DNA from: an uncultured Psychroserpens sp.
GTDB lineage: Bacteria > Bacteroidota > Bacteroidia > Flavobacteriales > Flavobacteriaceae
Assembly: GCF_947501425.1 (NCBI RefSeq)
Contig: NZ_CANMVN010000003.1
Span: 1-64,000, forward strand
DNA length: 64,000 nt
Direction of reading: 5' to 3'
The notes beneath the pieces are model-generated. The model was not told the origin of the DNA and searched no databases. It saw nothing but the letters and a program-made list of their open reading frames with translations. Below, in pieces: positions 1,534 to 28,053 of the stretch; the stretch's first letter is position 1, and every line of letters starts with the position of its first letter. The translations under genes and the position numbers were made by a program.

Positions 1534-1664
1534 GCACAACAACGTGTATAGCTCATTGCGGCTGAATTCCTAATCGGAATTCATTGCAATTTGCTATCTT
1601 TCGGTTTCGGCGGAAAATCATAGCTGATTTTCCACAACGAGCCATACACAAAACCGTTGGCAAC
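1534..1664 (+). repeat. attC-like site S1
   Basis: A 131 bp imperfect inverted repeat. Left core GCACAAC followed by AACGTGTATAGCTCATTG; right arm ends CATACACAAAACCGTTGGCAAC. The outer arms pair (TATAGCTCATTG against the reverse complement TATGGCTCGTTG), with a few extra bases on the right arm only. Internal hairpins: GAATTCC/GGAATTC and GGAAAATCA/TGATTTTCC. Nearly identical to S5 except at the right boundary. Integron-like identity is inferred. Confidence 0.8.
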
Positions 1665-1707
1665 AATATTACGAAAAACTTGCATTTGATTCATATTTGG
1701 TGTAATT

Positions 1708-1722
1708 TTACATCAAATGTAA
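1708..1722. promoter_or_regulatory. candidate autoregulatory operator of the ParDE pair
   Basis: Perfect inverted repeat TTACAT-N3-ATGTAA ending four bases before the antitoxin start codon. It overlaps a second, imperfect inverted repeat (TTTGGTGTAA...TTACATCAAA). ParD antitoxins are ribbon-helix-helix repressors that bind such palindromes; binding here is inferred. Confidence 0.5.
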
Positions 1723-1726
1723 TATT

Positions 1727-1966
1727 ATGGTGAGACAAAGCATATCATTCACAAAACCCAATGATGAATGGCTGAAAAATCAAGTTGATAACAAAGAATA
1801 TTCGAGTAAAAGTGAATTAGTCAACGATTTAATAAGACAAGCAAGACATCAACAAATTCAAATTGATTGGATTAGAACAAAACTTGAAAGAGCTGAAAAA
1901 AGCGGATTTACTTCTGATAACAAAGCTCAAATTCTAAAACAATCAAAGGATTTACTAAATGGCTAA
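1727..1966 (+). CDS. parD: ParD-like antitoxin
   Basis: A 79-residue protein. Residues 3-45 read as a ribbon-helix-helix DNA-binding domain (QSISFTKPNDEWL...SKSELVNDLIRQA), and the C-terminal half is the toxin-binding helix seen in ParD/CopG-type antitoxins. It neutralises the toxin encoded immediately downstream and normally represses its own promoter. The reading frame overlaps the toxin gene by 8 bases, so translation is coupled. With the toxin it fills the whole cassette between attC-like sites S1 and S2, a common cargo in chromosomal integrons. Confidence 0.88.
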   Translation: MVRQSISFTKPNDEWLKNQVDNKEYSSKSELVNDLIRQARHQQIQIDWIRTKLERAEKSGFTSDNKAQILKQSKDLLNG

Positions 1967-2246
1967 TTTTAGAATAAGTAATACTGCTAAAGAAGATTTA
2001 ATAAGAATTCATCATTACGGAGTTAAAAAATTCGGAATTACTCAAGCGGATAAATATTTTGAATCTTTTTTTGAATATTTTGAGATCATTGCACAAAGAC
2101 CATATTCATTTGAATCTGTTGATTTTATTAAAAAAGGATATCGACGTTGTGTTTGTGGATCTGATAGCATTTTCTTTAAAGTAAATGAAGACATTATAGA
2201 TATTATGGCTATCGTCGGAAAACAAGACTTGAATAATATTCTTTAA
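1959..2246 (+). CDS. parE: ParE/RelE-superfamily toxin
   Basis: A 95-residue protein with the compact ParE fold signature: ISNTAKEDLIRIHHYG at the N-terminus and GYRRCVCGSDSIFFKV followed by IDIMAIVGKQD at the C-terminus. Characterised ParE toxins poison DNA gyrase; the exact target here cannot be read from sequence. It overlaps the antitoxin by 8 bases and ends 8 bases before the S2 repeat. Toxin-antitoxin pairs in cassette arrays are thought to stabilise the array against deletion. Confidence 0.88.
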   Translation: MANFRISNTAKEDLIRIHHYGVKKFGITQADKYFESFFEYFEIIAQRPYSFESVDFIKKGYRRCVCGSDSIFFKVNEDIIDIMAIVGKQDLNNIL

Positions 2247-2254
2247 AAAATACA

Positions 2255-2392
2255 GTTGCCAACAACGTGTATAATGCATTGCTTCTTCCCTAACCTTTCG
2301 GAATAATTTAGACAAACACTAAAGTTCACTTTTCTTTTACTAACTTTATCCTAACCAACGCAACGAAACCATAGCCAAACCCGTTGTAGCCA
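2255..2392 (+). repeat. attC-like site S2
   Basis: A 138 bp repeat beginning GTTGCCAAC-AACGTGTATAATGC and ending ATAGCCAAACCCGTTGTAGCCA. The left nine bases are the exact reverse complement of GTTGGCAAC at the start of the same (ParDE) cassette in S1. They match the right end of S2 only at GTTG. Confidence 0.8.
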
Positions 2393-2423
2393 ATTAGAAA
2401 ACCAAGGTTTATATAATATGCTC

Positions 2424-2431
2424 TACATTTG
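2424..2431 (+). promoter_or_regulatory. TAnnTTTG promoter box (TACATTTG)
   Basis: Bacteroidota -7 type box TACATTTG lying inside the cassette, 47 bases before the start codon at 2479. No convincing TTG element was seen at the usual upstream distance. Suggests the cassette carries its own promoter. Confidence 0.4.
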
Positions 2432-2478
2432 TAGAAATAAAATAAAAACTCTAAATTTATGGAGATTATTATATTTTT

Positions 2479-3384
2479 ATGAAAAAAATCTTACCTCTAT
2501 TAATTATTCTAATTGGATTAACTTCTTGTAAAGAAAATACAGAAAAACAAACCACATCAGATGAAACATCAAATTCTATTGATTATTCTGTAGAAATGAC
2601 AGAAGAGCAAAAGGATTTGAAAAAGAATGCGATACCCATTGAAAGCTTATCAAAATTGAGCAACAAGATATACGATGAAATTGCAAATTTTGAAATATTA
2701 ATGATTGGCGAAATGCACGGAACAAGTGAACCTGCTGAATTTGCTTATGGACTATGTGAACTGATTGCTAAACACGAAGGCAGTGTCATAATGGCTATGG
2801 AAATTCGTGCTTCACTTATGAATAACTTGTCAAACGAGATGTCAATTTCCGAGTTAAAAGAATTGGATTTCTTTCGTAATAAAAATTTTGACGGTAGAAA
2901 TGGCGTAGCATGGCTTGATTTAGTATACAAAAGCATTAAAAATGATGGAATTATTTTAAAATTCATTGATAATCCTTACCAATCTTCAACCAGAGACTCA
3001 TCCATGTACAGGGAAATACGCAACATCCATAATAAACATCCAAACACTAAAATAGTTACTCTAACTGGCAATGCACATAATTCTTTTATACCGCTTTTCA
3101 ACAAAGAGAGAATCGGAGGATACTTGTTAAAGGATACTGTTAATTTTGATTCTAAAAAAATCATATCCATTAATCATGCATTTAGTGAGGGAAATATGTT
3201 AAATAACGACCTTACCGGATTAAAAATGAGAACTATTGAAAGAAAGGAAAATATTTATAATACTACCTTATCTCATGAAATGTTTTTATATAGAAAATTG
3301 CCTCAAGAACTAAATCGATGTACACATATCTTATATACTGATAAAGTAACTGCTTCAGGAATAATTAAAAAAGATGATAGGTAA
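2479..3384 (+). CDS. ChaN/erythromycin-esterase-like lipoprotein
   Basis: A 301-residue lipoprotein (LTSC lipobox, Cys17). Around residues 74-82 it has ILMIGEMHGTSE, and later LTGNAHNSFIP. The GE-x-H-G-T-x-E pattern plus a late GNAH motif is shared by erythromycin esterase-like, ChaN-like and Tiki/TraB-type proteins, which use these Glu/His residues for metal, haem or hydrolysis chemistry. I cannot say which activity applies; antibiotic inactivation is possible but unproven. It is the only gene of the cassette between S2 and S3, and is preceded by a TACATTTG box. Confidence 0.65.
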   Translation: MKKILPLLIILIGLTSCKENTEKQTTSDETSNSIDYSVEMTEEQKDLKKNAIPIESLSKLSNKIYDEIANFEILMIGEMHGTSEPAEFAYGLCELIAKHEGSVIMAMEIRASLMNNLSNEMSISELKELDFFRNKNFDGRNGVAWLDLVYKSIKNDGIILKFIDNPYQSSTRDSSMYREIRNIHNKHPNTKIVTLTGNAHNSFIPLFNKERIGGYLLKDTVNFDSKKIISINHAFSEGNMLNNDLTGLKMRTIERKENIYNTTLSHEMFLYRKLPQELNRCTHILYTDKVTASGIIKKDDR

Positions 3385-3474
3385 TGATAGTATATATCTC
3401 TTTTACGGAAAAATCGACTTGGCAAAACGAACTCAAAAACATAGAACAACAAATAGAAAATCGAATAAAATAAC

Positions 3475-3693
3475 TGGCTACAACAACGTGTATAATTAAT
3501 TGCTAAGCTGTTTAAGTAAAGTAAAAATTCTTACTTTTATTACTAATCAAAAAATCTTGATTTAGATTGCAATAGCCTCGCTCCTGCCAACGCTGTTTTT
3601 GCCTACCTCCTTAAAGTCGGCTGATTCGGCAAAAGCTAAACCAAAGCAAGACTCTAAGATCGCAACTAAATCATACACAAACACGTTGGCAAT
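3475..3693 (+). repeat. attC-like site S3
   Basis: A 219 bp site, longer than its neighbours. It starts TGGCTACAAC-AACGTG, the exact reverse complement of GTTGTAGCCA that opens the same cassette in S2. It ends CATACACAAACACGTTGGCAAT. The outer arms pair (TATAATTAATTGC against TATGATTTAGTTGC), and an extra internal stem GTTTTTGCC/GGCAAAAGC is present. Reading frame 3599-3709 is contained in the site and should not be counted as protein. Confidence 0.78.
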
Positions 3694-3709
3694 AATTAAA
3701 AATCACAAT

Positions 3710-4867
3710 ATGAAGATAGTAAGTTTCAAATTATTAATGATTACTATCATTTTACCAATGTTCTTATTTTCTCAAAAGAACAGTTCAATGACTACAGAAG
3801 GCACTTTGCTTATCATGGGAGGCGACTGCACCAATGACTTCTTCATTTCGGAATTTGCAGGTTTGATTGGCAATATTGAAAGTAATATAGTTATAATTCC
3901 TACAGCTATAGAAGATAAATATATAGACTCTGACAATGACATTAACATGTTAAAAAAACCATTTACTGATATTGGTTTTAAAAACATTAGCATCGTTCAC
4001 ACTAGAGAAACCAAGGTTGCTAATAGTGATTCCTTAAATGATATATTGTTATCTGCAAATGGCGTTTGGATAACTGGTGGCAGACAATGGCGTTTGGCCA
4101 AAGCTTATAATGGCACAAAAATTCAAGGTTCACTTAAAACTCTATTAAATCAAGGAAAAGTAATTGCAGGCACTTCAGCTGGAGCTTCTATAATGGGAGA
4201 TGTTCTTGTTCGTGGCGATTCTAAAACCCATACAATTATGCTTGGTGATTATCAAAATGGATTTGGTTTTATTAGCAATTTCGCAATAGATCAACATCAC
4301 ATTGCTAGAAATAGACAATTTGATATGTTTGAATTAAAAAATAAAAAACCAGATGTTCTAGGTATTGGAATTGATGAAAATACGGGAATTATTGTAAACA
4401 AAAATAAATTCCGAGTTATAGGAAAAAGTTATGTTACAATTTATGACAACACAAGATGGTCAGAAGAAAGAGACACCATCTATCAATTAGAAAAAAATGA
4501 CAAGCAATTTTATACTCTCTCAAATGGTTATGAATACGACTTAACCAAAAGAAAAATAATTACTAAAAATGACAGGGAGATTTCGCCATATAACGAAGAG
4601 GTAATAAAAAAAATCACTGGCACGTATCAACAAATAGAAAGTTTAAAATATGGTCAGAATTTAAAAATAAAAGTAACTTTTGAAAACAATGATCTCTATT
4701 TTGAACAATCTTGGAATAATGCTAAATATAAGATTGAATATCACTATTTAACCACTTTTTTTAGACCTAATAGTATTTCAGCTTATCATTTTAATAGAGA
4801 TAAATCAGGTGCTATCAATTCATTTGATTTTTTTCAATTTGGTACAACTACTTGGATTCGGCAATAA
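3710..4867 (+). CDS. cyanophycinase-like serine peptidase (family S51), exported
   Basis: The start at 3710 gives a 385-residue protein with a signal peptide (MKIVSFKLLM...FSQ). Starting at 3599 would add 37 residues encoded by the repeat S3. The family S51 core includes LLIMGGD near the N-terminus, ITGG, the nucleophile motif GTSAGAS around residue 155, and IDQHH with GIGIDENTG. Cyanophycinases hydrolyse beta-linked Asp-Arg polymers and relatives cleave Asp dipeptides. The last ~90 residues form an extra beta-rich domain. Shares a cassette with the beta-lactamase, 18 bases apart, so probably co-transcribed. Confidence 0.8.
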   Translation: MKIVSFKLLMITIILPMFLFSQKNSSMTTEGTLLIMGGDCTNDFFISEFAGLIGNIESNIVIIPTAIEDKYIDSDNDINMLKKPFTDIGFKNISIVHTRETKVANSDSLNDILLSANGVWITGGRQWRLAKAYNGTKIQGSLKTLLNQGKVIAGTSAGASIMGDVLVRGDSKTHTIMLGDYQNGFGFISNFAIDQHHIARNRQFDMFELKNKKPDVLGIGIDENTGIIVNKNKFRVIGKSYVTIYDNTRWSEERDTIYQLEKNDKQFYTLSNGYEYDLTKRKIITKNDREISPYNEEVIKKITGTYQQIESLKYGQNLKIKVTFENNDLYFEQSWNNAKYKIEYHYLTTFFRPNSISAYHFNRDKSGAINSFDFFQFGTTTWIRQ

Positions 4868-4885
4868 AAAAACTAACTACTCATT

Positions 4886-5614
4886 ATGAAACAATCGCTT
4901 TATCTCATAATTTTCTTATTTATTTATACAAGTTGTAAATCTGATAAACTTGATTTAAAAAATTACGAATCTGAAATTTTAAAAATCGAAAAATTAAGTG
5001 ATAATGTTTTCAAGCATATTTCATATTTAGATACCGAGGATTACGGAAAAGTACCTTGTAACGGAATGATATTTGTCAACAATAATGAAGCTGTCATTTT
5101 TGATACACCAACCAATAATAAAGCATCAGAAACATTAATTAATTGGCTTGGTAAAACAAATATAGAGGCAGTTGTTATTTCGCATTTTCATGTAGATTGT
5201 TTAGGAGGCTTGCAAGCATTCCATGCAAATAGTATCAAATCATATTCTAATAAACTTACTATTGAATTAGCAAAACAAGACAATCAAATTTTACCAAAAA
5301 ATGGATTTGACAACAAAATTGAAATCAATGTTGGAGGTGTAAAAGTTTTTGCGGAATTTTTTGGAGAGGGACACACTAAAGATAACATTGTTGGTTATAT
5401 TCCAACCGCTAAAACATTGTTTGGAGGTTGCTTAATAAAAGCATTTGATTCTAGCAAAGGAAATCTTAATGATGCTAATACTTTGGAATGGAGTAAAACA
5501 GTAAGTCGAATAAAAAAAGAAATGTCTGAACTAGAAACAGTAATACCAGGACATGGCAAAAGTGGCGGAATAGAACTTTTAGAATATACAATAGAACTGT
5601 TTAATGAAAAATAA
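4886..5614 (+). CDS. subclass B1 metallo-beta-lactamase, lipoprotein
   Basis: A 242-residue protein with lipobox YTSC (Cys17). The complete B1 zinc ligand set is visible: H100-F-H102-V-D104 in SHFHVDCLGG, H163 in GEGHTKDNIVGY, C182 in FGGCLIKA and H223 in IPGHGKSGG, with Lys185 after the Cys. This is the arrangement of IMP/VIM/NDM-type enzymes, which hydrolyse penicillins, cephalosporins and carbapenems with two zinc ions in the periplasm. Lipid anchoring is also known for NDM. It is second in a two-gene cassette between S3 and S4. Substrate range cannot be read from sequence. Confidence 0.85.
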   Translation: MKQSLYLIIFLFIYTSCKSDKLDLKNYESEILKIEKLSDNVFKHISYLDTEDYGKVPCNGMIFVNNNEAVIFDTPTNNKASETLINWLGKTNIEAVVISHFHVDCLGGLQAFHANSIKSYSNKLTIELAKQDNQILPKNGFDNKIEINVGGVKVFAEFFGEGHTKDNIVGYIPTAKTLFGGCLIKAFDSSKGNLNDANTLEWSKTVSRIKKEMSELETVIPGHGKSGGIELLEYTIELFNEK

Positions 5615-5616
5615 CT

Positions 5617-5750
5617 ATTGCCAACAACGTGTATAGTTAATTATTGGTACAGCTTGCACTCGGAAAATCCTACGGATTTTCCTCTGGTTTGTTTTCTTTT
5701 GCTAACTTAGTTCTTGCCAACGCAACTAATCATACACAAACACGTTCTGT
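5617..5750 (+). repeat. attC-like site S4
   Basis: A 134 bp site. The left end ATTGCCAAC is the exact reverse complement of GTTGGCAAT opening the same cassette in S3. The outer arms pair (GTGTATAGTTAATT against GTGTATGATTAGTT) and an internal hairpin GGAAAATCC-TAC-GGATTTTCC is perfect. Right end ACACGTTCTGT. Confidence 0.8.
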
Positions 5751-5774
5751 TTTATTATGACAAACCGCTAACCA

Positions 5775-6573
5775 ATGATAAAATTATTTAGAAAAATCAG
5801 GCAAAATTTGCTTTCAGAAGGGAAAACTGGAAAGTATTTCAAATATGCAATTGGAGAAATTGTACTTGTTGTTATTGGAATTTTGATTGCACTACAGATC
5901 AATAATTGGAATCAAGATCTCCATGAACAAAAAATTGTAACTACATATTTGAAAGGAATCTATGAAGACCTCTCAACCCAAGCTTTATCCCTAGAAGAAA
6001 CCATCCCTTTAAATGAGAATGTGATTTTTACCATCAATGCTATTATCGATGATTACCAAAGACATGATGGCTTTAAGGCAAATGATAGTTTACTGTCACA
6101 AATCAATCAAGTTTTGAACACACCTGGCCCAATTGAGATTAAAACATCTTTTACAGAACTCTTGAATAGTGGAGATTTGGGATTAATGAATAACAATGAA
6201 TTAAGAAAGAATATTGTATTATTCTATCAAGATTTAGAGGATAGATTTCAAAGAAGCAAAATTAATATTATAAATATTTATCAGGCTCACTTGCTACCAG
6301 ATTTAGCTGCAAGAACAATAATAAGAAGTCCTGGCCAATATGCTCATATCAAGGGCAGTCTTAATGAGTATTTTAAAAAAAGGGAATATTCAGAACGTTT
6401 AAAAAATATTGCGTTCAGAAGAATAGAAAAACGAAGATACAGAGCTCGATTTATTGAACTCCTTGAATTTAAGGCTAGTTATAGAATCACTTGAATTAAA
6501 ACGTTCTCAAGACATCTTAGAAGAGTTATATGTGCTAAAGACAGAGATTGAAAAAGAAATTGAAAAGAATTAA
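5775..6573 (+). pseudogene. DUF6090-type membrane protein (copy 2), probable 3' frameshift
   Basis: The open frame runs 5775-6494 (239 residues): a DUF6090 N-terminus, MIKLFRKIRQNLLSEGKTGK, and a membrane segment at about 24-46 with EIVLVVIGILIALQINNWN. Near 6450 the frame appears to slip. A second frame across 6450-6573 encodes DLLNSLNLRLVIESLELK and a long helical tail that looks more like the C-terminus of the family than the basic tail of the open frame. That frame stops 5 bases before S5, where a cassette gene is expected to end. It may still give a membrane-anchored truncated product. A sequencing error is possible. Confidence 0.6.
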
Positions 6574-6578
6574 CGAAA

Positions 6579-6709
6579 GCACAACAACGTATATAGCTCA
6601 TTTCGGCTGAATTCCTATTCGGAATTCATTGTAATTTTGCTATCTTTCGATTACGGTGGAAAATCATAGCTGATTTTCCGCAACAAGCCATACACAAACA
6701 TGTTGCGTG
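6579..6709 (+). repeat. attC-like site S5
   Basis: A 131 bp site, the same length as S1 and nearly identical to it, including left core GCACAAC and both internal hairpins. It ends ACACAAACATGTTGCGTG instead of CCGTTGGCAAC. The divergence at the right core marks the junction with the next cassette. Confidence 0.8.
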
Positions 6710-6784
6710 TCATACTAAAAACAAAACTCAATATAAAATGGGATAGTCTAAACCCGACCAAGTAGTTACTAAACAAATAAAATT

Positions 6785-7303
6785 ATGAAAAAAACAACCG
6801 ACCGACTGACTTTTCTCACTGCGCTTTTTGTATTAACTTTTACTTTCCAAAGTTGTGAACAAAAACAAAAGAAAGAAACAAAAGAAGTTGAAAAAGAAGT
6901 AATAGTTAAATCCGAGAAACCTGAATATTTTCTCTTACGCCCAGAAGTGGAAAAAGCTTACGGATATTCTCATGCTGTAAAAATTGGAAATAATATTAAA
7001 ATTTCTGGAGCAGTAAGTATGGATGACGCAGGAAATCCAACTGCCATTGGAGATATAGAACAACAAATGAAAAACTGTTATGCAGATTTGGAAAAAATAT
7101 TAAATCACTTTGATTGTACATTTGATGATGTAGTAAAAGAGGACATTTTTACAACTGACATGGCGCAAATGCTCGAAAAATCAGCCTACCGAGCTGAAAT
7201 TTATAAAAACGGATTCCCAACTGGTTCTTGGCTTGAAGTAAAAGGATTGGCATTACCTGAATTTATGGTTGAAATAGAACTTGAAGTACATAAATCCGAA
7301 TAA
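6785..7303 (+). CDS. RidA/YjgF-family lipoprotein
   Basis: A 172-residue protein with a lipoprotein signal (TFQSC, Cys24), a charged linker of about 25 residues, and a RidA-like domain (NIKISGAVSMDDAGNP, then QMKNCYADLEKILNHFDCTFDDVVKEDIFTTDM). Cytosolic RidA deaminates reactive enamines using a conserved Arg before the EV motif. Here that region reads GSWLEVKGLALPE with no Arg, so classical deaminase activity is doubtful. An exported, lipid-anchored RidA-like protein is unusual but occurs in Bacteroidota. Its cassette starts at S5. Confidence 0.75.
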   Translation: MKKTTDRLTFLTALFVLTFTFQSCEQKQKKETKEVEKEVIVKSEKPEYFLLRPEVEKAYGYSHAVKIGNNIKISGAVSMDDAGNPTAIGDIEQQMKNCYADLEKILNHFDCTFDDVVKEDIFTTDMAQMLEKSAYRAEIYKNGFPTGSWLEVKGLALPEFMVEIELEVHKSE

Positions 7304-7320: not shown

Positions 7321-7445
7321 AGTAGTCATATGTAAATGTTGGTACTCACCTACTTCTGAGAACTTTCATGACTTTCTCTTTGGTAAGTACTTGCAAAAAT
7401 TAGATACTAACCCTCATAACCAACCATCTACAAATACATTATACA
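7321..7445 (+). repeat. degenerate attC-like site
   Basis: The stretch from ATATGTAAATG through TACTCACCTAC resembles the left half of S9, and the far end ATCTACAAATACATTATACAG recalls a decayed right arm. Neither core is intact. It would separate the RidA-like gene from the following DUF6090 gene. Confidence 0.35.
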
Positions 7446-7515
7446 GAGTAAAATCAAAAATCTAGTAGACCTTGGGTTGAGATATCTACTTGTGAAAAAA
7501 ATAGAAGTAAAAAAT

Positions 7516-8280
7516 ATGATTAAGTTCTTTAGACACATTCGAAAGCAATTACTTTCAGAAGGAAAAACTGGAAAGTATCTAAAATATGCTATTGGTGAAA
7601 TTATTCTTGTTGTAATCGGGATTTTGATTGCACTTCAAATTAATAATTGGAATGAAAATCGAAAGAACAAGAATACCGAAGCAGATTACTACTGTAGAAT
7701 TTTAGACGACTTTGAATTCAATGAAAAGTTAATAGATGAAACTACTAAAATCACTACTAACAAAATAAAACTATGCAAAGAGCTAATATTAGATTTAAAT
7801 AACTCTCCAAATGACAGGAGTAAAATACTGAATAAATTTGTAGTTGCTGTAAGACAAGATGTTTTTGTACCCAGTACTATTACTTTTGAAGATATAACAT
7901 CTTCGGGACAGTTAAAGCTGTTAAATGATTTAGAACTAAAAAACAGACTTATTCAGCATAGTACATTTTTAAACAATATTTTAAATCTACTTAAAGAAAA
8001 TCGGAATGTCATTATTAACAGAATGAGTGATTTTGAATTAATAAGTGAATTTGGATATCAAGATATTGATTATCTAAAGCAAGAGCTTAATAAAGAACAT
8101 ATTGCCCTTTTGCCAAAAAACAACTGGACAAATGACCCTACTCATCCAATATTCTTAAAGTTTCAGGACAATCTTTTGGTATACATAGCTATGCTGATTA
8201 GACAGAAACAGCATTTATCAAATTTAAAGCAAGAAATGCAAGAACCCTTAAAGCTATTAAAAGACAAAAAGTGTGAATAA
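7516..8280 (+). CDS. DUF6090-type membrane protein (copy 3)
   Basis: 254 residues from the start at 7516 (MIKFFRHIRKQLLSEGKTGK). An in-frame start 39 bases upstream adds an atypical leader and is not preferred, because the family begins with this motif. One membrane segment lies at about residues 24-46 (AIGEIILVVIGILIALQINNWN), followed by a long helical, charged domain. Function unknown. Intact, unlike copy 2. The gene ends just before a half-decayed repeat (S6). Confidence 0.8.
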   Translation: MIKFFRHIRKQLLSEGKTGKYLKYAIGEIILVVIGILIALQINNWNENRKNKNTEADYYCRILDDFEFNEKLIDETTKITTNKIKLCKELILDLNNSPNDRSKILNKFVVAVRQDVFVPSTITFEDITSSGQLKLLNDLELKNRLIQHSTFLNNILNLLKENRNVIINRMSDFELISEFGYQDIDYLKQELNKEHIALLPKNNWTNDPTHPIFLKFQDNLLVYIAMLIRQKQHLSNLKQEMQEPLKLLKDKKCE

Positions 8281-8424: not shown

Positions 8425-8757
8425 ATGGGATTAGCTAAAACCGAAATGTTTACAGATGAGCAAAATGAAATTTCGCTTTTTGCAAAAGTATTTGGACATC
8501 CTGCGCGAATAGCAATTTTACAACATTTATTTAAGATTAACTCATGTGTTTGCGGAGATTTGGTAGACGAAATTGGATTGGCTCAACCAACAATCTCACA
8601 ACATTTGAAAGAACTGAAACATTTAGGATTGATCAAAGGAAATGTAGAAGGAACAAGCGTTTGCTACTGTATTCATAAGGAAAATTGGACAGCAATGAAA
8701 ACTGTAATGAACGAATTTCTTAACCAAGACTTAACAGAAAAACAAGATTGCTGTTAA
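8425..8757 (+). CDS. arsR: ArsR-family arsenic-responsive repressor
   Basis: A 110-residue winged-helix repressor. FAKVFGHPARIAILQHL opens the DNA-binding domain. SCVCGDLVDEIGLAQPTISQHL holds the recognition helix together with the Cys pair that binds trivalent arsenic in ArsR proteins. LKHLGLIKGNVEG leads into the wing, and the protein ends in two cysteines. It should repress the ars operon until arsenite or antimonite is bound. It is first in an operon with DUF6428, ArsC-like and Acr3 genes, and near-identical operator-like blocks precede this gene and the next. Confidence 0.9.
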   Translation: MGLAKTEMFTDEQNEISLFAKVFGHPARIAILQHLFKINSCVCGDLVDEIGLAQPTISQHLKELKHLGLIKGNVEGTSVCYCIHKENWTAMKTVMNEFLNQDLTEKQDCC

Positions 8758-8774
8758 AAAATTTGAATTATTTA

Positions 8775-8790
8775 ATCGTATTATCGCAAT
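8775..8790. promoter_or_regulatory. candidate ArsR operator 2 (inside the operon)
   Basis: ATCGTATTATCGCAAT sits in a ~30 bp block (8772-8801) that repeats 8387-8416 with only two differences in the first 29 bases, ending AATAAACAAATAAAG. Half-sites ATCGTA and CGCAAT are retained, but the centre is less symmetric than operator 1. It may give a second regulated promoter for the downstream three genes. Confidence 0.45.
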
Positions 8791-8804
8791 AAACAAATAA
8801 AGTT

Positions 8805-9272
8805 ATGCAATTATCACAAGTAAAATCAGTATTAAAAGAATTGGAAACTATTAATTTTCAATTACCAAACGGAGAATTAGTGCCAAGTCACTTTCACGTA
8901 ACAGAAGTTGGTAAAATCACAAAACATTTCATCGATTGTGGCGGAACTGTGAGACATGAAGAAGTAGTAAACTTTCAACTTTGGAATGCAAATGATTATG
9001 ACCACAGGTTACATCCGGAAAAGTTATTAAACATCATCGAACTTTCTGAAAAAGTTTTAAAAATAGAAGATTTAGAAATTGAAGTAGAATATCAAGCAGA
9101 CACTATTGGAAAATTCGGTTTAGATTTCGACGGAAAAAACTTCTTGTTAACCAGCAAACAAACCGACTGTTTAGCAAAAGACAAATGTGGCATTCCAGTA
9201 GAAAAAAGTAAAGTAAACTTATTAGTCTTAAATGATGAACCTTGTTGTTCACCAGATGGCAACTGTTGCTAA
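8805..9272 (+). CDS. DUF6428 family protein of ars operons
   Basis: A 155-residue soluble protein containing SHFHVTEVGKITKHFIDCGG and ending with two cysteine clusters (PCCSPDGNCC), as does the neighbouring ArsR. The family is found next to arsR and acr3 in Bacteroidota; its biochemical role is not established. The C-terminal cysteines suggest arsenite binding or hand-over, which is inference. It sits 47 bases after arsR with its own operator-like block, and 22 bases before the phosphatase-like arsenate reductase. Confidence 0.75.
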   Translation: MQLSQVKSVLKELETINFQLPNGELVPSHFHVTEVGKITKHFIDCGGTVRHEEVVNFQLWNANDYDHRLHPEKLLNIIELSEKVLKIEDLEIEVEYQADTIGKFGLDFDGKNFLLTSKQTDCLAKDKCGIPVEKSKVNLLVLNDEPCCSPDGNCC

Positions 9273-9294
9273 AATCTAAATAAATTTCATAACA

Positions 9295-9927
9295 ATGACA
9301 TCAACAAAACCAACGCTCTTTTCAGAAATAGAAGATGTAATTAAGCAATTAAACCCTCAAACTATTTCAAGTGAACGCAAAGCCGTTTTACAACCGCTAA
9401 TTGATTTTATTCAGTCAAAGGTTTCGAAGCATAAAGAAATTCGTATCAACTTCATCTGTACTCATAATTCAAGAAGAAGTCATTTATCACAAGTTTGGGC
9501 TCAAACAATAGCAAATTACTTCAATATTAAAAATGTGTCTTGCTATTCGGGCGGAACAGAACGCACCGCACTTTTTCCAATGGTTGCAGAAACTTTACAA
9601 AATTCAGGGTTTCAAATACATACCATTTCAAACAACGACAATCCTGTTTACAGTATAAAATACGCTGACAATGAGCATCCTATAATTGGTTTTTCAAAAA
9701 CATTAGATGATAATTTTAATCCGAAATCTGAATTTGCAGCAATCATGACTTGTTCTCAAGCTGATGGTGGTTGTCCTTTTATTGCAGGTGCAGAAAAACG
9801 TATTCCTATAACTTTTGAAGACCCAAAAGTATTTGACAACACACCACAACAAGCAGAAAAATATCAAGAAAGAAGTCAGCAAATCGCAACTGAACTATTT
9901 TACGTTTTCTCTGAAATAAATTCATAA
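9295..9927 (+). CDS. arsC: low-molecular-weight phosphatase-type arsenate reductase
   Basis: A 210-residue protein. The P-loop CTHNSRR (a CX5R motif) after INFI, within about residues 52-60, is the active site of the low-molecular-weight tyrosine phosphatase fold, which thioredoxin-linked arsenate reductases use to reduce arsenate to arsenite. A second conserved region, TCSQADGGCPF, offers further cysteines for the reductase relay. It lies 3 bases before acr3, so the product arsenite can be exported by the next gene. A plain phosphatase is less likely in this context. Confidence 0.85.
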   Translation: MTSTKPTLFSEIEDVIKQLNPQTISSERKAVLQPLIDFIQSKVSKHKEIRINFICTHNSRRSHLSQVWAQTIANYFNIKNVSCYSGGTERTALFPMVAETLQNSGFQIHTISNNDNPVYSIKYADNEHPIIGFSKTLDDNFNPKSEFAAIMTCSQADGGCPFIAGAEKRIPITFEDPKVFDNTPQQAEKYQERSQQIATELFYVFSEINS

Positions 9928-9930
9928 AAC

Positions 9931-10980
9931 ATGGCCGCAAAAAAATTAAGTTTTCTTGACAGAAATCTAACACTTTGGATTTTTGTTGCAATGGCTTTTG
10001 GAGTTGGTCTTGGTTATTTTATACCAACATTCCCCAATATTATAAACTCTTTTAGTAGTGGAACAACAAATATTCCTATTGCAATCGGTTTGATTTTAAT
10101 GATGTATCCTCCTTTAGCAAAGGTCAATTATTCGTTATTACCAAAAGTTTTTAGAAACACAAAAATTCTTTCTATTTCACTCATTTTAAATTGGATCATT
10201 GGTCCTGTTTTAATGTTTGTTTTAGCCATTACATTTTTACGTGATTATCCAGAATATATGGTCGGACTGATTTTAATTGGTTTGGCACGTTGTATTGCAA
10301 TGGTTTTGGTTTGGAACGACCTTGCAGAAGGCAGTAGCGAATACGGAGCTGGCTTGGTGGCCTTAAATAGTATATTTCAAGTGTTTGCATACAGTTTCTA
10401 TGCTTGGATTTTTATAACTGTGCTTCCACCCTATTTTGGATTTGAAGGCGCAATTGTAGATATATCAATTGGTACCATTGCAGAAAGCGTTGCTATTTAT
10501 TTAGGTATTCCTTTTGTAATGGGGATTTTAAGCAGATTGATATTAGTCAAACTAAAAGGCGAAGATTGGTACACAACCAAATTTATTCCTGCAATTTCGC
10601 CAATAACTTTAATTGCGCTTTTATTTACAATTGTGATAATGTTCTCTCTAAAAGGAGAATTAATTGTAGAGATACCAATGGACGTTGTAATGATTGCAAT
10701 TCCATTGCTGATCTATTTTACACTAATGTTCATCATTGGATTTTTCTTTACTAAAGCAACAGGAGCTGAATATGATAAAACAGCTTCAGTTGCCTTTACA
10801 GCAGCAGGAAATAATTTTGAATTAGCGATTGCAGTTGCTATTGCCGTTTTCGGACTCAATTCTGGACAGGCATTTGCAGGAGTAATTGGTCCTTTAGTTG
10901 AAGTACCAGCATTGATTTTATTAGTTCGAGTTTCCTTTTGGTTACGAAATAAGTATTACAGAAAAGCCAAGCTGAATTAA
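9931..10980 (+). CDS. acr3: Acr3-family arsenite efflux permease
   Basis: A 349-residue, almost entirely hydrophobic protein with about ten membrane spans, of normal length for Acr3. Family signatures include [10 protein letters not shown] and [16 protein letters not shown], where the Cys is the conserved residue needed for arsenite transport, and later [16 protein letters not shown]. It should extrude arsenite across the inner membrane using the proton gradient. Last gene of the four-gene ars operon; repeat S7 begins 8 bases after the stop, so the operon may travel as one large cassette. Confidence 0.92.
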
Positions 10981-10988
10981 AAAAGCGA

Positions 10989-11120
10989 GTTGATAACAAT
11001 GTTTATAGTTTAGTGCAAGTGACTTTACTCTGGAAAGTCCTAGCACTTTTACTATATTTGATTAAAGCGTAAAATCTTCACCGATTTTACCACACCAAAC
11101 TATACACAAACACGTTACCA
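10989..11120 (+). repeat. attC-like site S7
   Basis: A 132 bp site from GTTGATAACAATGTTTATAG to TATACACAAACACGTTACCA. Arms pair as TATAGTTTAGTG against TATAGTTTGGTG, a different sequence from S1 or S3 but again self-complementary. Internal hairpins: GACTTT/AAAGTC and TAAAATC/GATTTTA. Confidence 0.75.
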
Positions 11121-11147
11121 GACACTTGAATTAAACACTGTAATGAT

Positions 11148-11967: not shown

Positions 11968-11997
11968 AATATTTGAAAAACACCGATTAAATAAAAA

Positions 11998-12768: not shown

Positions 12769-12808
12769 AATAGTCAATATTTTACAAGTCATTACCATCT
12801 TACACAAT

Positions 12809-12816: not shown

Positions 12817-12833
12817 ACTAAAATAATAGTCAT

Positions 12834-14354: not shown

Positions 14355-14362
14355 AAAACGTT

Positions 14363-16104: not shown

Positions 16105-16120
16105 TAATACAAAACGAAAT

Positions 16121-18682: not shown

Positions 18683-18825
18683 GTCTACAACACGCATAAT
18701 TAATTAGCATAATAGGTTAAACAAAGATAAAATACTTACTTTTATTACGAATTGAAACATTTAATTTAGATGGTAATTGTCTGGTTCCTGTCTTAGCAGT
18801 CTTTACCATTAGTACTAATCAAAAC
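18683..18825 (+). repeat. attC-like site S13, right core lost
   Basis: Left GTCTACAACACGCATAATTAATTAG, S3-type interior (CTTACTTTTATTACGAATTG, ATTTAGATGGTAATTG). The right end has no recognisable ACACGTT core. Confidence 0.5.
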
Positions 18826-18840: not shown

Positions 18841-19224
18841 ATGAAAGTTACAGCCGAAAAAAATGAAAAGGTTGCTAATATGATATTTGCAACCATTTAT
18901 CCACTTTACCTGAATAGGCTAGAGAAAAATGGTAGAACAAAAGAAGAGCTCAACCAAGTAATCGAATGGTTTACTGGTTTTGATCATGATACGTTACAAG
19001 CACTTATTGATGAAAAAGTAACTTTTAGAACATTTTTTGAAAAAGCCAAAATAAATCCAAACGAACATTTGATTAAAGGAGTTGTTTGTGGATATCGAAT
19101 TGAAGAAATAGAGGATGAATTTGAACTATATAAACAATGCAGGCAAATGGAGAAACTGATAGATGAATTGGCAAAAGGTCGTAAAATGGAGAAAATTTTA
19201 CGTGAAGAAAAAAATAAAAACTGA
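18841..19224 (+). CDS. DUF2200 family protein
   Basis: A 127-residue soluble protein. NEKVANMIFATIYPLYLNRLE, then VIEWFTGFDHDTLQ, and KINPNEHLIKGVVCGYRIEEIED are characteristic of DUF2200, a small family of unknown function spread across Bacteroidota and Firmicutes and often in accessory regions. Length is normal. The stop overlaps the beginning of S14. Confidence 0.78.
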   Translation: MKVTAEKNEKVANMIFATIYPLYLNRLEKNGRTKEELNQVIEWFTGFDHDTLQALIDEKVTFRTFFEKAKINPNEHLIKGVVCGYRIEEIEDEFELYKQCRQMEKLIDELAKGRKMEKILREEKNKN

Positions 19225-19225
19225 A

Positions 19226-19356
19226 GCTAACAAGATGAATATTTAATTGCTGCTTCCCTAGCCTTTCAGAATAAATTAGAGACATAATACAATTCTGGTT
19301 TCTTTTGCTAACTTAAACCTAATTTGCACAACTAACCTATACAACTCGTTAGCAAC
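19226..19356 (+). repeat. attC-like site S14
   Basis: 131 bp, S2 subtype (TTAATTGCTGCTTCCCTAGC, TTTTGCTAACTTAAACC). Left GCTAACAAGATG; right TATACAACTCGTTAGCAAC with the GTT core kept. Confidence 0.6.
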
Positions 19357-19433: not shown

Positions 19434-19892
19434 GTGGAATCAAATTATAAAATAAGAAACGTTGAAAAAGAAGATCTCACCCAAATTTTTCAACTTGAAG
19501 AGGAAGCTTTTAAACCATCCCATTATCCATTATTTGTTCTTAGACAATTCTATGACATCTTATCTGATCTCTTTTTCGTTGCGGTAAACGAACACAACCA
19601 AATAAAAGGCTATTGCTTTGGAGGAATTGATCATAATAGTAAAACGGGTTGGGTCTTCGCTTTAGCAGTTACAAAACCTGAACAAAAGAGAAAAATTGGT
19701 CAACGTATAACCATTAAGTTATTAGAGGCGTTAAAAAACAGAGATATCAATACAATCCAGTTAACGACAACTCCCGATAATAGTTCGGCAATCAATTTGT
19801 ATGAAAAATTGGGATTTGAAAAAGTAACAGAAACTGCTGATTACTATTTTGACAATGTTCCGAGAATAATTATGAGGTTAAAAATCAAATAA
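19434..19892 (+). CDS. GNAT-family N-acetyltransferase
   Basis: A 152-residue protein with a GTG start. The acetyl-CoA binding region is VFALAVTKPEQKRKIGQRITIKLLEAL (motif A, here K-R-K-I-G-Q instead of the common RGxG). It is followed by IQLTTTPDNSSAINLYEKLGFEKV (motif B), the typical RimI-like end. It transfers an acetyl group to an unknown amine; such genes are common integron cargo. Confidence 0.82.
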   Translation: MESNYKIRNVEKEDLTQIFQLEEEAFKPSHYPLFVLRQFYDILSDLFFVAVNEHNQIKGYCFGGIDHNSKTGWVFALAVTKPEQKRKIGQRITIKLLEALKNRDINTIQLTTTPDNSSAINLYEKLGFEKVTETADYYFDNVPRIIMRLKIK

Positions 19893-19898
19893 AACCTT

Positions 19899-20036
19899 GC
19901 ATCAACAACAGGGATAGCTAATTGCTGGTTCAATGTGGACTTAGAAACTCTACAGATGTCCCTCTATTTAGTTTTCTATTTACTAACTTAGTTCTAGACA
20001 ATTCAACAAAATCAAACACATATACCTTACTACACC
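19899..20036 (+). repeat. attC-like site S15
   Basis: 138 bp. Left GCATCAACAACAGGGATAGC, interior as S4 (TGCTGGTTCAATGTGGAC, TTTACTAACTTAGTTCTAG), right CACATATACCTTACTACACC. Cores partly decayed. Confidence 0.55.
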
Positions 20037-22295: not shown

Positions 22296-22400
22296 GCAAT
22301 ACATTTGTATAGTGCATTGCTGCTTCCCTAACCATTCGGAATAAATTAGAGATACACTAGAATTCTATTTTTTTACTTACAAATATCATAAAGCTACACT
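22294..22400 (+). repeat. attC-like site S17, right half lost
   Basis: AGGCAATACATTTGTATAGTG at the left, then TGCATTGCTGCTTCCCTAAC and ATTCGGAATAAATTAGAGAT as in S2. The right arm fades after TTTTTTTACTTAC. Confidence 0.5.
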
Positions 22401-24523: not shown

Positions 24524-24907
24524 ATGTTTACGTTTTCATTCAATCATATAGCTCTTGCGGTAAAAGATGTCAACAAATCTATTGAGTTTTACAAAAAGAC
24601 ACTACAACTTGAAGACATTGAGAATACTGCCTCAAACTCAAAAACAAGATGGCTATCGCTAGGGCAAGGAAAACAACTTCATCTTATCCCTCGTCCCAAT
24701 TCTGAAATAAAAATTAATAAGGCTGTCCATTTTGCATTAGCAACATCTGATTTGAATTCATTTGTAAAACATCTTGAAGAATTAAAAGTGGAATACTCAG
24801 ATTGGAAGGATACACCTAATAAAAATTACATACGAAAAGACGGAATCAAACAGATTTACTTTCAAGATCCAAATGGCTATTGGATTGAAATAAATGATGA
24901 TATTTAA
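24524..24907 (+). CDS. VOC-family metalloprotein (FosA/glyoxalase-like)
   Basis: A 127-residue single VOC unit: FNHIALAVKDVNKSIEFYKKTL (metal-ligand His8), AVHFALATSDLNSFVKHLEEL (second His) and IYFQDPNGYWIEIND (Glu ligand). These three ligands fit fosfomycin-thiol transferase, glyoxalase or dioxygenase relatives; the length is that of dimeric single-domain members. Substrate cannot be told. The next gene is another VOC protein. Confidence 0.78.
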   Translation: MFTFSFNHIALAVKDVNKSIEFYKKTLQLEDIENTASNSKTRWLSLGQGKQLHLIPRPNSEIKINKAVHFALATSDLNSFVKHLEELKVEYSDWKDTPNKNYIRKDGIKQIYFQDPNGYWIEINDDI

Positions 24908-24935
24908 AAACATTAGTAACAACTCATATAATCAA
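24908..24935 (+). repeat. attC-like left-core remnant
   Basis: AGTAACAACTCATATAATC matches the left end of a site (AAC-AACGTGTATAATT) with changes. No interior or right half remains, so two VOC genes now lie 57 bases apart. Confidence 0.35.
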
Positions 24936-24964
24936 CATTTTTGATTTATAACACAATTAAAAAA

Positions 24965-25390
24965 ATGAAACTAACAACATTTCTAACCTTTGTAGGTGAT
25001 CAGTGCGGAAAGGCTGAAGAGGCTATCAATTTCTATACGTCTATCTTTCCAAATTCAGAAATTAAAAGCTTAGTAAAATACGCAAAAGGAGAACCTGGTG
25101 GAACACCAGAACTTATCAAATATGGTGAATTTACACTAAATGGTGAAGCATATATGGTATCTGAAAGTAATTATAATCACGCATGGTCATTTACACCAGG
25201 TGTTTCATTGTTTGTTACTTGTAACTCTGAAAATGAAATAGACACTTTATTTGAAAAACTTTCTTCTGATGGAGGTCAGATAATGGTTCCTCTGGACAAC
25301 TACGACTCTGGAGATTATGGCTTTGGTAAAAAATTTGGATGGTGTGCCGATAAATATGGCATTTCTTGGCAATTCAATCTTTCAGAATAA
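24965..25390 (+). CDS. PhnB-type VOC protein
   Basis: From ATG 24965, 141 residues (an upstream in-frame ATG at 24941 adds eight residues and is less likely). Typical of the PhnB/3-demethylubiquinone-methyltransferase-like VOC family: LTTFLTFVGDQCGKAEEAINFY, GEFTLNGEAYMVSES, FTPGVSLFVTC, and ending FGWCADKYGISWQFN. Usually described as glyoxalase-like, function not established. Confidence 0.8.
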   Translation: MKLTTFLTFVGDQCGKAEEAINFYTSIFPNSEIKSLVKYAKGEPGGTPELIKYGEFTLNGEAYMVSESNYNHAWSFTPGVSLFVTCNSENEIDTLFEKLSSDGGQIMVPLDNYDSGDYGFGKKFGWCADKYGISWQFNLSE

Positions 25391-26047: not shown

Positions 26048-26064
26048 AAAAGTACACTCCGTAA

Positions 26065-26240
26065 TATAATGGTTATAGCATACAATACATTACTACTTCC
26101 CTAACCCTTAAGATTAATTTAGAGATACGCTTATATTCTAGTTTGTTTTACTAACTTTAACCTAAACAGCCTGTTTTCTGGTAGAATAATTTAATACGCT
26201 AGCTAAGCAAACAAACTCAGGCTAATCACAAACACCCAAT
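26065..26240 (+). repeat. attC-like site S22, decayed
   Basis: ATGGTTATAGCATACAATAC, then TTACTACTTCCCTAACCC and TTTGTTTTACTAACTTTAAC as in S2; ends AATCACAAACACCCAATAC. Both cores are changed. About 40 extra bases interrupt the right half. Confidence 0.5.
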
Positions 26241-26261
26241 ACATAATTATAAAAAACATTT

Positions 26262-27116
26262 ATGAAATTAATTGTAAGCTTATTTATTTTGATCTCAAGT
26301 ATAGGATTTTCACAGTCTGATACCACAGAACTCCAATTTGAAACCAAATACTTTAATGCTGTTGACAAGTGGGTGGCTTTTCCTAAAAAAGAAGTGGATA
26401 CATCTTATACTTTCGGATTTATTTATATTGACGAACAAGCTGGGTTTACTTTTGATTATCATTCTAACTTTATCAACACTGAAAACGGTCTTAAAATCAT
26501 ACCTAGAACCTTTGAAGCTGGACTTAAATCAAGACTCTCTCCTAATACCATGGATGTTGCTGTACTAACTGATAAGCAAGTTTCAGAACTTGAACTTGAA
26601 ACTGAACCAGATTGGCTAGCTATTTACAAAAGAAACTCAGAAGAAACCGAATACTTAAAAAATATTGGCTTTCATTATAACGCAGTTGGAGCGAGTAATT
26701 TAGCACTCGAACCCTTAAAAAAAGCGTATAGTCAGGATCCGCATTTTATCGGACTCGAATTTGAACTTGCTTATGCTTATAATGCTCTGGGTAAATACAA
26801 CGAAGCGATTGAAGTTTTAGATAAGGCTATTGAGAATGATCCGGAAATTTTCTGGTTTTACAGAGAATTAGGGTTTTCTTATAAAAATATTGGGCAAATC
26901 GAAAAAGCTGAAACCATATACAAGCAAGGAATAAAACTGACAGACGACAATGCTCAAAAAGCTGAAATGGCAATTAATATGGCTCAGGCTTACTACCTAC
27001 AAAAAAACAAGGAAAAATTTGATGAATGGGCAAAATTAACAAGGAAATTTACTGATGAAAGCTCAATATTCAACCAGTATATAGACACCTGGGAAGAAAA
27101 ACTCAACAATGAATAG
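26262..27116 (+). CDS. TPR-repeat exported protein
   Basis: A 284-residue protein with a signal peptide (LISSIGFSQS). The N-terminal ~115 residues form an unrecognised domain. From about 120 there are at least three tetratricopeptide repeats (YLKNIGFHYNAVGASNLALE, EFELAYAYNALGKYNEAIEV, YRELGFSYKNIGQIEKAETI). It overlaps the following methyltransferase gene by 8 bases, so the two are translated together. Confidence 0.72.
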   Translation: MKLIVSLFILISSIGFSQSDTTELQFETKYFNAVDKWVAFPKKEVDTSYTFGFIYIDEQAGFTFDYHSNFINTENGLKIIPRTFEAGLKSRLSPNTMDVAVLTDKQVSELELETEPDWLAIYKRNSEETEYLKNIGFHYNAVGASNLALEPLKKAYSQDPHFIGLEFELAYAYNALGKYNEAIEVLDKAIENDPEIFWFYRELGFSYKNIGQIEKAETIYKQGIKLTDDNAQKAEMAINMAQAYYLQKNKEKFDEWAKLTRKFTDESSIFNQYIDTWEEKLNNE

Positions 27117-27861
27117 CAATTATAAAGTTGGCGATTTAGTATATGATGCAGATATTTATGATGGTATGAATACCAATATGAATGATTTGCAATTTTACAA
27201 ACGATGGCTACCTAAAAACAAAGATTCACATATACTCGAACTATGCTGTGGCACTGGGAGACTTACCCTTCCAATAGCTAAAGACGGCTATAACATAACT
27301 GGTGTTGATTACACGTCTTCAATGCTCAATCAAGCAAAAACAAGAGCTTCCGAAGAAGGCTTAGATATTGAATTTATTGAAGCCGATATGAGAACTTTAG
27401 ATGTGTCAGAAAAATTTGATCTCATTTTTATTCCGTTTAATTCAATCCACCATCTATACAAAAATGAAGATTTATTTAGCACATTTAATGTTGTTAAAAA
27501 TCATCTCAAAAAGGAAGGTATATTTATCTTAGATTGCTTTAATCCAAATATGCAATTTATTGTTAAAGGCGAAAAAGAACAAAAAGAAATAGCTAATTAC
27601 ACTACCAACGATGGAAGACATATACTGATTAAGGAAATCATGCGATATGAGGCTAAAACTCAAATAAACCGTGTAGAATGGCATTATTATATAAATGGTA
27701 AGTTTAATTCGATTCAAAATTTAGACATGAGACTGTTTTTCCCTCAAGAGTTAGATTCGTACCTAAAATGGAATGGTTTTAAAATCATTCATAAGTTTGG
27801 GAATTTTGAAGAAGATGCCTTTGATAACCAATCAGATAAGCAGATTTTTATTTGTCAATAA
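27109..27861 (+). CDS. class I SAM-dependent methyltransferase
   Basis: A 250-residue protein. Motif I is ILELCCGTGRLTLPIA (about residues 41-56), followed by the acidic ITGVDYTSSML, then EADMRTLDV and FDLIFIPFNSIHHL. This is a standard Rossmann methyltransferase with a C-terminal beta extension. The acceptor is unknown. Translationally coupled to the upstream TPR gene. Confidence 0.85.
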   Translation: MNSNYKVGDLVYDADIYDGMNTNMNDLQFYKRWLPKNKDSHILELCCGTGRLTLPIAKDGYNITGVDYTSSMLNQAKTRASEEGLDIEFIEADMRTLDVSEKFDLIFIPFNSIHHLYKNEDLFSTFNVVKNHLKKEGIFILDCFNPNMQFIVKGEKEQKEIANYTTNDGRHILIKEIMRYEAKTQINRVEWHYYINGKFNSIQNLDMRLFFPQELDSYLKWNGFKIIHKFGNFEEDAFDNQSDKQIFICQ

Positions 27862-27930
27862 GACGTTTGTATTGGCTGAGGCATTGCATTAAATTACAGA
27901 TTTTGAAGATATAATATTTCCGTATAAAAC

Positions 27931-28053
27931 ATAGCTATTGCAATAGTATGCTAAATGCATTGGTTGGTGCTCTCCTACTCTGAAAATTCGATAGATTTTT
28001 ATAATGGTCCATTTTCTTTCACTATTTTTAACATAACTAACACAACTACCTAT
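27931..28053 (+). repeat. attC-like site S23, last recognised
   Basis: GCTATTGCAATAGTATGC on the left, S4-like interior (ATTGGTTGGTGCTC, CTGAAAATTCGATAGATTTT), right part TAACACAACTACCTAT with no GTT core. The frame 27955-28053 is repeat, not protein. Confidence 0.5.

Follow-up and report, generated by a model that had tools for sequence, protein, structure and literature searches.

What moves the genes at the left end of this contig, and is the array that they form an integron? The stretch analysed here, hereafter the window, is positions 1–64000 of contig C3 (NZ_CANMVN010000003.1) of an uncultured Psychroserpens sp., whose genome is a 3.70-Mb draft assembly of 40 contigs and whose placement in the Flavobacteriaceae agrees with its relatives. 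The original prediction described an array of plus-strand genes separated by imperfect inverted repeats and proposed either a divergent integron lineage or another cassette-recombination system. This proposal is borne out by an attI-like site, by a recombinase gene that heads the array, by cassette ends that are complementary in a cassette-specific way, and by cassettes that are bounded at G^TT. The window very probably contains a chromosomal integron-like array, served by the tyrosine recombinase at the array head and acting through folded bottom-strand sites.

The array and the recombinase at its head

Two profile models, trained on other contigs and other genomes with the window's contig excluded, detected 14 attC-like sites at E ≤ 0.01 within 1533–28054, all on the plus strand, and 2 weaker sites (16805–16902, E = 0.32; 22306–22357, E = 0.28). 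They detected no site on the minus strand of the window and gave no match up to E = 1 in 28055–64000. Together with the open reading frame (ORF) list, which bears out the plus-strand packing of the genes, these sites uphold the arrangement first described; the repeats are real, and the earlier count of about 20 recognisable ones is a little high at detection thresholds that favour intact sites. A stricter, coupling-based scan returned four clean cassettes in 1656–6583, none on the minus strand of 1–32000, none in 32001–64000, and none in 10 block shuffles. The sites are therefore intact over approximately the first 6.6 kb and degenerate beyond. The window holds the distal portion of an array whose cassettes all run in one direction, and this portion is partly decayed.

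The left edge of the window is an assembly break and not the end of the array, because the window starts at position 1 of C3. The genome contains 11 exact copies of the motif CAACAACGTGTATA: 4 lie in the window, 6 lie on contigs C6, C14, and C15 (all of the source genome, G000; C6 and C14 are our loci L012 and L013), and 1 lies on C4. The contigs C6, C14, and C15 end in the same insertion sequence (IS), and the IS right end at window positions 1–77 also caps C14 at both ends and C15. The assembly is broken because copies of one IS interrupt the array.

As had been predicted, no integrase gene lies in the window, and the search proposed for a tyrosine recombinase at the array head found one on another contig of the same genome. 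The source genome has three PF00589 genes, one of which (C6:2679–3839, minus strand) encodes a tyrosine recombinase of 386 residues composed of SAM_4 and Phage_integrase domains. R235, K260, H324, R327, H350, and Y359, which we take to be its catalytic residues, are invariant across 35 recombinases. An attI-like core (...gatataactaG^TTACCTGTA) is located 33 nt past the recombinase stop codon on the same strand, and can be written as ATATAACTA-G^TT with the G at C6:2645. It is followed by a gene of 228 codons and then by a site whose left end, TACAGGTAAC, is the complement of the cassette start. C6 holds one more cassette beyond this first one and then ends inside the IS; C15, C14, and C3 hold further cassettes bounded by IS copies. 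The source genome therefore shows the recombinase, attI, and the first cassettes, and the physical link between C6 and C3 would run across the assembly gaps. Recombinase and array are contiguous in other genomes (G002, G006, G011, and G022).

The same layout recurs in relatives. A search at E ≤ 1e-60 detected the recombinase in 31 of 57 genomes, the source genome included, and a profile search at E ≤ 1e-75 detected it in 149 of 249 genomes of the family. We examined 80 related recombinase loci, in 33 of which paired sites were detected (100 sites in the position test and 102 in the coupling test, the motif cut-offs of which differ). A paired site is present in 24 of the 35 loci with at least 3 kb of DNA after the recombinase. 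In 25 of 43 loci, the end of the first cassette predicts, at 9 or more of 10 positions, a 10-mer after the recombinase gene. The attI motif ATATAACNNGTT (at most 1 mismatch) is located 3' of the gene in 62 of 73 loci, compared with 42 of 3041 control windows, and lies 14–51 nt from the gene in 55 of these 62 (7 of the 80 loci were dropped, 4 being too short and 3 having no recombinase picked). It also follows the gene in 20 of 20 further close relatives (L021–L040, source genome included). In a second recombinase clade, group B, ATATAACNNGTT was found in 0 of 10 loci, yet in 6 of the 7 stretches with a downstream site (L044, L046, L047, L143, L145, and L147), the sequence after the gene agrees at 9 or 10 of 10 positions with that predicted from the end of the first cassette (8 of 10 in L048). 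Therefore, the recombinase clades seem to have a separate attI each and a common type of attC. In sum, a recombinase gene stands beside an attI with cassettes beginning at G^TT, which is the arrangement of an integron.

Cassette ends, site structure, and strand polarity

Integron cassettes complete their own attC with their start, so that a match is expected between the start and the end of a cassette but is not required between the outer ends of a single repeat. The ParD/ParE-like cassette of the window (genes at 1727–2246) has a start, TTGGCAAC, that pairs with its own end, GTTGCCAA. Averaged over 16 adjacent site pairs of the source genome, 5.6 of 8 positions agree between the start and the end of a cassette, compared with 2.5 between the two ends of the same repeat and 2.7 at random. 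In the relatives (68 pairs from 33 of the 80 loci), the corresponding values are 5.3 of 8, 2.5, and 2.7; none of 2000 permutations reached the observed coupling in either set. The array of G002 comprises 268 sites over 262 kb of a single contig (C1:1838279–2100649), 268 on the plus strand and 0 on the minus strand. There, 245 of 267 cassette pairs match at 5 or more of 7 positions, compared with 37 of 268 pairs within one repeat. The start of each such cassette thus completes its own attC-like site, as in an integron.

Cassette boundaries also follow from segments that are homologous between or within arrays (at least 300 nt, at least 80% identity, both copies inside arrays). For 42 of 71 segments, both copies stop no more than 15 nt from G^TT, where 1.1 would be expected if the ends were slid randomly. 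On C14, one cassette is present twice at 100% identity (1558–2107 and 5992–6541) with different flanks; the duplicate starts one base ahead of G^TT, extends to 550 nt counted from the G, and stops at the next CGTTG. A C14 cassette is common to G002 at 82.6% identity.

For the structure of the sites, we used a set of 126 cassettes, picked from 245 sites by at least 6 of 7 matches at R-box positions 4–10; pairing at these positions is not independent of the choice, and positions 11–13 and the arms are. The sites show the following features: (i) the two ends of the cassette itself form the R stem, which consists of GTT plus as many as 10 further nt and includes one G.T position that is fixed; position 11 is a bottom-strand G.T wobble in 109 of the 126, and positions 12 and 13, which played no part in the choice, pair in 111 and 120; (ii) there is a conserved L box, GTGTATA/TATACAC, and GTGTATA was found in 109 sites by a search motif that favoured the L-box and spacer letters and required AAC/GTT; (iii) the spacer is asymmetric (3/6 nt), reads AAC or ACC on the 5' side in 121 sites, and is made up almost entirely of A and C when read on the top strand, these two bases accounting for 371 of 378 letters in its 5' part and 707 of 756 in its 3' part; and (iv) the repeats are 115–129 nt long in 109 sites. 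The AAC/GTT R boxes, L boxes, unpaired central spacer, and variable terminal structure of attC sites are thus all present. The poor fit to the attC core consensus, which had been pointed out before, is real: only 8 of 126 cassette starts read GTTRRRY.

Most differences between the two arms of a site are A/G or C/T exchanges that go in the same direction. As a consequence, G.T wobbles confined to the bottom strand outnumber those confined to the top strand by 355 to 5 in the 126 sites and by 760 to 7 in G002, and the predicted fold of the bottom strand is the more stable one in 95% of 60 sites. In classical attC sites, according to PMC2727003, the bottom strand is selected mainly through extrahelical bases located on the R''-L'' arm. 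We compared the arms by one symmetric alignment scoring for both site sets, since a scoring that penalised transitions had given paired gaps. An extra base on the R''-L'' arm was present in 14 of 126 flavobacterial sites, compared with 11 of 11 classical sites from a genome of the same phylum (G120). The other arm carries an extra base in 61 of 126 flavobacterial and 6 of 11 classical sites, and 54 of the 126 have none on either arm. The wobble asymmetry can be read as selection for a bottom-strand hairpin, which the enzyme would then use.

The recombinase most likely inserts circular gene cassettes, which would be expressed, at the attI just 3' of its own gene and moves them from one attC-like site to another. 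The bottom-strand hairpin would be the form in which a site recombines, in the order R stem from the cassette's two ends, A/C spacer, L box, and inner arm. Mismatches in the inner arm of the top strand would become G.T wobbles on the bottom strand, and the choice of strand would rest on this wobble asymmetry and the asymmetric 3/6-nt spacer instead of extrahelical bases.

Relation to IntI integrons and other explanations

In alignment, an IntI-specific insertion of approximately 45–50 residues before HxLRH is present in 28 of 28 IntI rows (IntI1 and 27 rows from the phylum's genomes; the picking rule yielded no row for 3 of the 30 IntI loci) and in 0 of 31 flavobacterial rows (30 and one from Chryseobacterium). 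Likewise, residues 198–246 of IntI4 have no counterpart in the recombinase of the source genome. The IntI model TIGR02249 matches this recombinase in two stretches with 209 bits (cut-off 265). NF040815 (XerA), entitled "site-specific tyrosine recombinase/integron integrase", is the best NCBIfam model, with 217.6 bits for the same protein (cut-off 220) and 235 bits for that of L052; the scores for TIGR02224 and TIGR02225 are far below their cut-offs. IntI forms one clade (100/100) at the end of a long branch, and the flavobacterial rows fall outside that clade, both in a 62-row tree, from which one over-long IntI row was dropped, and in a further tree that took in six Xer rows. In the latter tree, the flavobacterial clade and IntI together are separated from XerA and XerC/D at 99/95, with a program warning on long branches. 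It places the flavobacterial recombinases as a sister clade of IntI. They resemble XerA, XerC, and XerD in their SAM_4 and Phage_integrase domains without the IntI-specific insertion, and differ from them in grouping with IntI, in heading cassette arrays, and in having an attI. The IntI-specific domain is reportedly necessary for activity, to go by the title of one reference. PMC9024848 and PMC9668308 use it as a mark of integron integrases.

To judge from its genes and sites, the system works like an integron and lies outside both IntI and the attC consensus; it looks like a separate, overlooked branch of integrons. A primitive absence of the IntI-specific domain fits best. We therefore lean, with some reserve, towards a second integron branch that split off before the domain arose and that would recombine single-stranded hairpins without it and mostly without extrahelical bases, choose the strand by G.T wobbles, and sustain a cassette economy across the family. 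A cassette platform of this kind would make the origin of integrons testable, and opens the questions of which minimal enzyme and minimal site suffice for folded single-strand recombination and how the strand is chosen. The strict site pattern was found in 103 of 249 family genomes (reversed control 0), and a class-wide sample of 396 genomes, given with this survey, yielded 7 matches, 3 of them outside the family. This distribution suggests that common marine bacteria hold a large pool of mobile genes invisible to finders that require the IntI domain; if so, a widespread cassette economy of the Flavobacteriaceae has been missed by design.

The possibility that the flavobacterial enzyme is an IntI that lost its specific domain secondarily, the system being a derived IntI integron and not a separate branch, is the less probable account, though one to be taken seriously. 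It accords with the position of the recombinases and IntI on one side of the 99/95 branch, with the attI, attC-like sites, and cassette logic common to both, and with the finding that 84 of 296 sampled genomes of the phylum have an IntI above the TIGR02249 cut-off. Against it stand the separate IntI clade and the absence of the domain from all 31 aligned flavobacterial rows. Moreover, of 86 genomes with a TIGR02249 match at E ≤ 1e-50, a threshold that the recombinase of the source genome fails as its match splits into two stretches, none belongs to the family and one to the class.

Several results weigh against the main explanation, an integron-like array served by the recombinase at its head: (i) C3 and C6 are separate contigs and are not physically joined; (ii) 29 of the 71 homologous segments end away from G^TT; (iii) 14 of the 126 sites have the R''-L'' extra base, and the 11 classical sites show 5 bottom-only and 0 top-only wobbles, that is to say, wobbles and extra bases occur in both classes and the contrast is therefore one of degree; (iv) 18 of 43 loci have no predicted attI 10-mer, and in many of them the first detectable site is distant; (v) the motif detects no paired site in 11 of the 35 loci that extend at least 3 kb past the recombinase, 90 of the 149 recombinase-positive family genomes have fewer than 2 strict sites, and G003, a single contig with a recombinase, has 1 site in 80 kb, so either the strict pattern overlooks sites or many of the platforms hold no cassettes; and (vi) ten family genomes have 2 or more sites and no recombinase at E ≤ 1e-75.

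These ten genomes, and the single sites elsewhere on C2 and C4 of the source genome, would also be expected if another enzyme (XerC/D, a transposase associated with repetitive extragenic palindromes, or a phage integrase) moved the sites and the recombinase adjoined them by chance. We regard this as very improbable. All 100 paired sites lie downstream of the recombinase and on its strand, with 0 on the minus strand and 0 in 720,906 upstream bases of the 80 loci. The attI 3' of the gene is specific to the recombinase clade, and no site was found in 8-kb stretches around the other two PF00589 genes of the source genome. In favour of the main explanation, the recombinase is present in 59 of 69 family genomes with 2 or more strict sites, compared with 90 of 180 others (Fisher p = 1.3e-7, kinship ignored). 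The repeats are inverted, imperfect, and fairly constant in size, as miniature inverted-repeat transposable elements (MITEs) or other dispersed palindromes without cassette function would be, but this reading, raised beside the original prediction, can practically be discarded, because the variable complementarity links one repeat to the next across a gene and not the outer ends of one repeat, and because orientation is uniform and homology ends at G^TT.

Among known systems, sedentary chromosomal integrons (superintegrons) are the closest. The likenesses are a recombinase that heads the array, an adjoining attI, one-direction cassettes, a G^TT boundary, AAC...GTT R boxes with extended self-complementarity, an L box, a spacer, a variable terminal stem, and large arrays. 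The flavobacterial system differs in that (i) the recombinase does not have the IntI-specific domain and few cassette starts fit GTTRRRY; (ii) most sites are without the classical extrahelical bases and bottom-strand G.T wobbles are frequent; and (iii) the recombinase gene is co-directional with the cassettes. The integrase gene is co-directional with the cassettes in a few IntI integrons, e.g., that of Treponema denticola. For classical attC sites, R-box self-complementarity of 9–11 nt is given in PMC2727003. The 268 sites of G002 exceed the largest Vibrio integron quoted in the available part of PMC8946536 (217 cassettes in V. vulnificus; approximately 180 in V. cholerae). For the Bacteroidetes proper, PMC9024848 cites isolated integrases that had been found previously and, after them, a single complete integron, that of Salinibacter ruber. 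A literature search, outside which most subscription journals and all preprints lay, found no paper describing the present platform.

The cassettes of the window and further observations

The features of the window are as follows; cargo was identified by a domain-family scan of 30 window proteins, and E values are those of the site profiles.

1–77, plus: IS right end; the array goes on leftward on other contigs
98–838, plus: DUF6090 gene, cassette cargo (domain scan)
1533–1667, plus: attC-like site, core G^TT at 1656 (E = 6e-20)
1727–2246, plus: ParD/ParE-like toxin-antitoxin cassette (domain scan)
2252–2394, plus: attC-like site, core G at 2383 (E = 7e-17)
2479–3384, plus: cargo gene without Pfam match, lipoprotein-like start (coupling 7/8)
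3473–3697, plus: long attC-like site (~204-nt form), core G at 3685 (E = 1.1e-53)
3599–5614, plus: two-gene cassette, peptidase S51-like and metallo-beta-lactamase-fold (domain scan; coupling 7/8)
5614–5746, plus: attC-like site, core G at 5744 (E = 1.4e-28)
5775–6494, plus: DUF6090 cassette cargo (domain scan)
6577–6713, plus: attC-like site, core G at 6702 (E = 2.3e-16)
6785–7303, plus: Ribonuc_L-PSP (RidA-like) protein, cassette cargo (domain scan)
7338–7442, plus: weak decayed attC-like site (E = 0.0016)
8425–10980, plus: arsenic-type block with ArsR-family helix-turn-helix, DUF6428, LMWPc-like (below cut-off), and SBF-family transporter genes (domain scan)
10988–11124, plus: attC-like site, core G at 11114 (E = 8.9e-10)
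11148–11657, plus: DUF3124 gene, cassette cargo (domain scan)
11913–11968, plus: decayed attC-like site, right half (E = 0.0016)
11998–14354, plus: AraC-family regulator and S41 peptidase (domain scan)
14358–14500, plus: attC-like site (E = 1.3e-11)
14554–15876, plus: S41 peptidase, cassette cargo (domain scan)
15958–16108, plus: attC-like site, long form, partly decayed (E = 2.5e-13)
16805–16902, plus: possible decayed site, weak (E = 0.32)
17749–18681, plus: SUKH (SMI1/KNR4) gene, cassette cargo (domain scan)
18688–18807, plus: decayed attC-like site (E = 0.0055)
19220–19355, plus: attC-like site (E = 9e-07)
19434–19892, plus: GNAT acetyltransferase, cassette cargo (domain scan)
19903–20022, plus: attC-like site (E = 3.8e-09)
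22306–22357, plus: possible decayed site (E = 0.28; DNA repeat family D2)
24524–25390, plus: two VOC-fold (glyoxalase-like) proteins (domain scan)
27109–27861, plus: methyltransferase, cassette cargo (domain scan)
27954–28054, plus: last recognisable decayed site, the distal end of the array in the window (E = 1e-4)

The cargo is mixed and includes the kinds named in the original prediction (toxin-antitoxin, metallo-beta-lactamase, arsenic genes, acetyltransferase, VOC, and SUKH proteins). The listed TTG start at 3599 of the S51-like/metallo-beta-lactamase cassette overlaps the site at 3473–3697. The array in the window contains three DUF6090 genes (98–838, 5775–6494, and 7477–8280), two of which have a 145-nt stretch that is 81% alike; DUF6090 is a cargo family captured repeatedly. 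The duplicated C14 cassette has no complete ATG ORF above 53 codons and is perhaps a cassette for a non-coding RNA, a promoter, or a very small protein. An Rfam scan of the window matched zero families.

Copies of the IS occur within the array in both orientations, and at window positions 1–77 and the ends of C14, C15, and C6; the IS is presumably IS3-like, from the look of an OrfA-like start on C6. Solitary attC-like sites occur off the array at C2:91553, C2:433301–435506, and C4:147623 (L017–L019) and look as if cassettes had been inserted elsewhere.

With regard to the recombinase, the chromosomal location is not conserved, because its two neighbour genes, which we take to be aroB-like and proline-dehydrogenase-like, recur near it in 1 of 80 loci. 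The in-frame stops suspected in many group B matches were checked in two (L044 and L049), and both were the normal terminal stop. A HARP-like N-terminal domain in place of the IntI domain was rejected: residues 21–61 of the source-genome protein match it at 16.3 bits, below the cut-off, and it is not among the families matched at E ≤ 0.01 in 35 relatives. Some array-heading recombinases are without the N-terminal part, e.g., that of L113 (310 residues as called here). An AlphaFold model of the L052 recombinase (mean predicted local distance difference test score 84.2; predicted template modelling score 0.60) was not used as evidence.

Finally, Polaribacter phage P12002L (L249), for which a cluster of attC sites lacking an integrase (CALIN) has been described, has one strict site at 39123–39244 and further profile hits near 31.1 and 39.5–40.2 kb. 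According to PMC9892861, one of two P12002L attC sites recombined with IntI1 in Escherichia coli, with no top-strand recombinants; the available part of that paper treats them as attC clusters without an integrase and describes no host platform. Since P12002L holds sites of the present type, one such site may already have been tested with its platform unrecognised. The sites of this phage lie near methyltransferase and Mom-like genes, and the strict site is also present in 45 stretches of viral contigs (L196–L240); phages may therefore be carriers of these cassettes.

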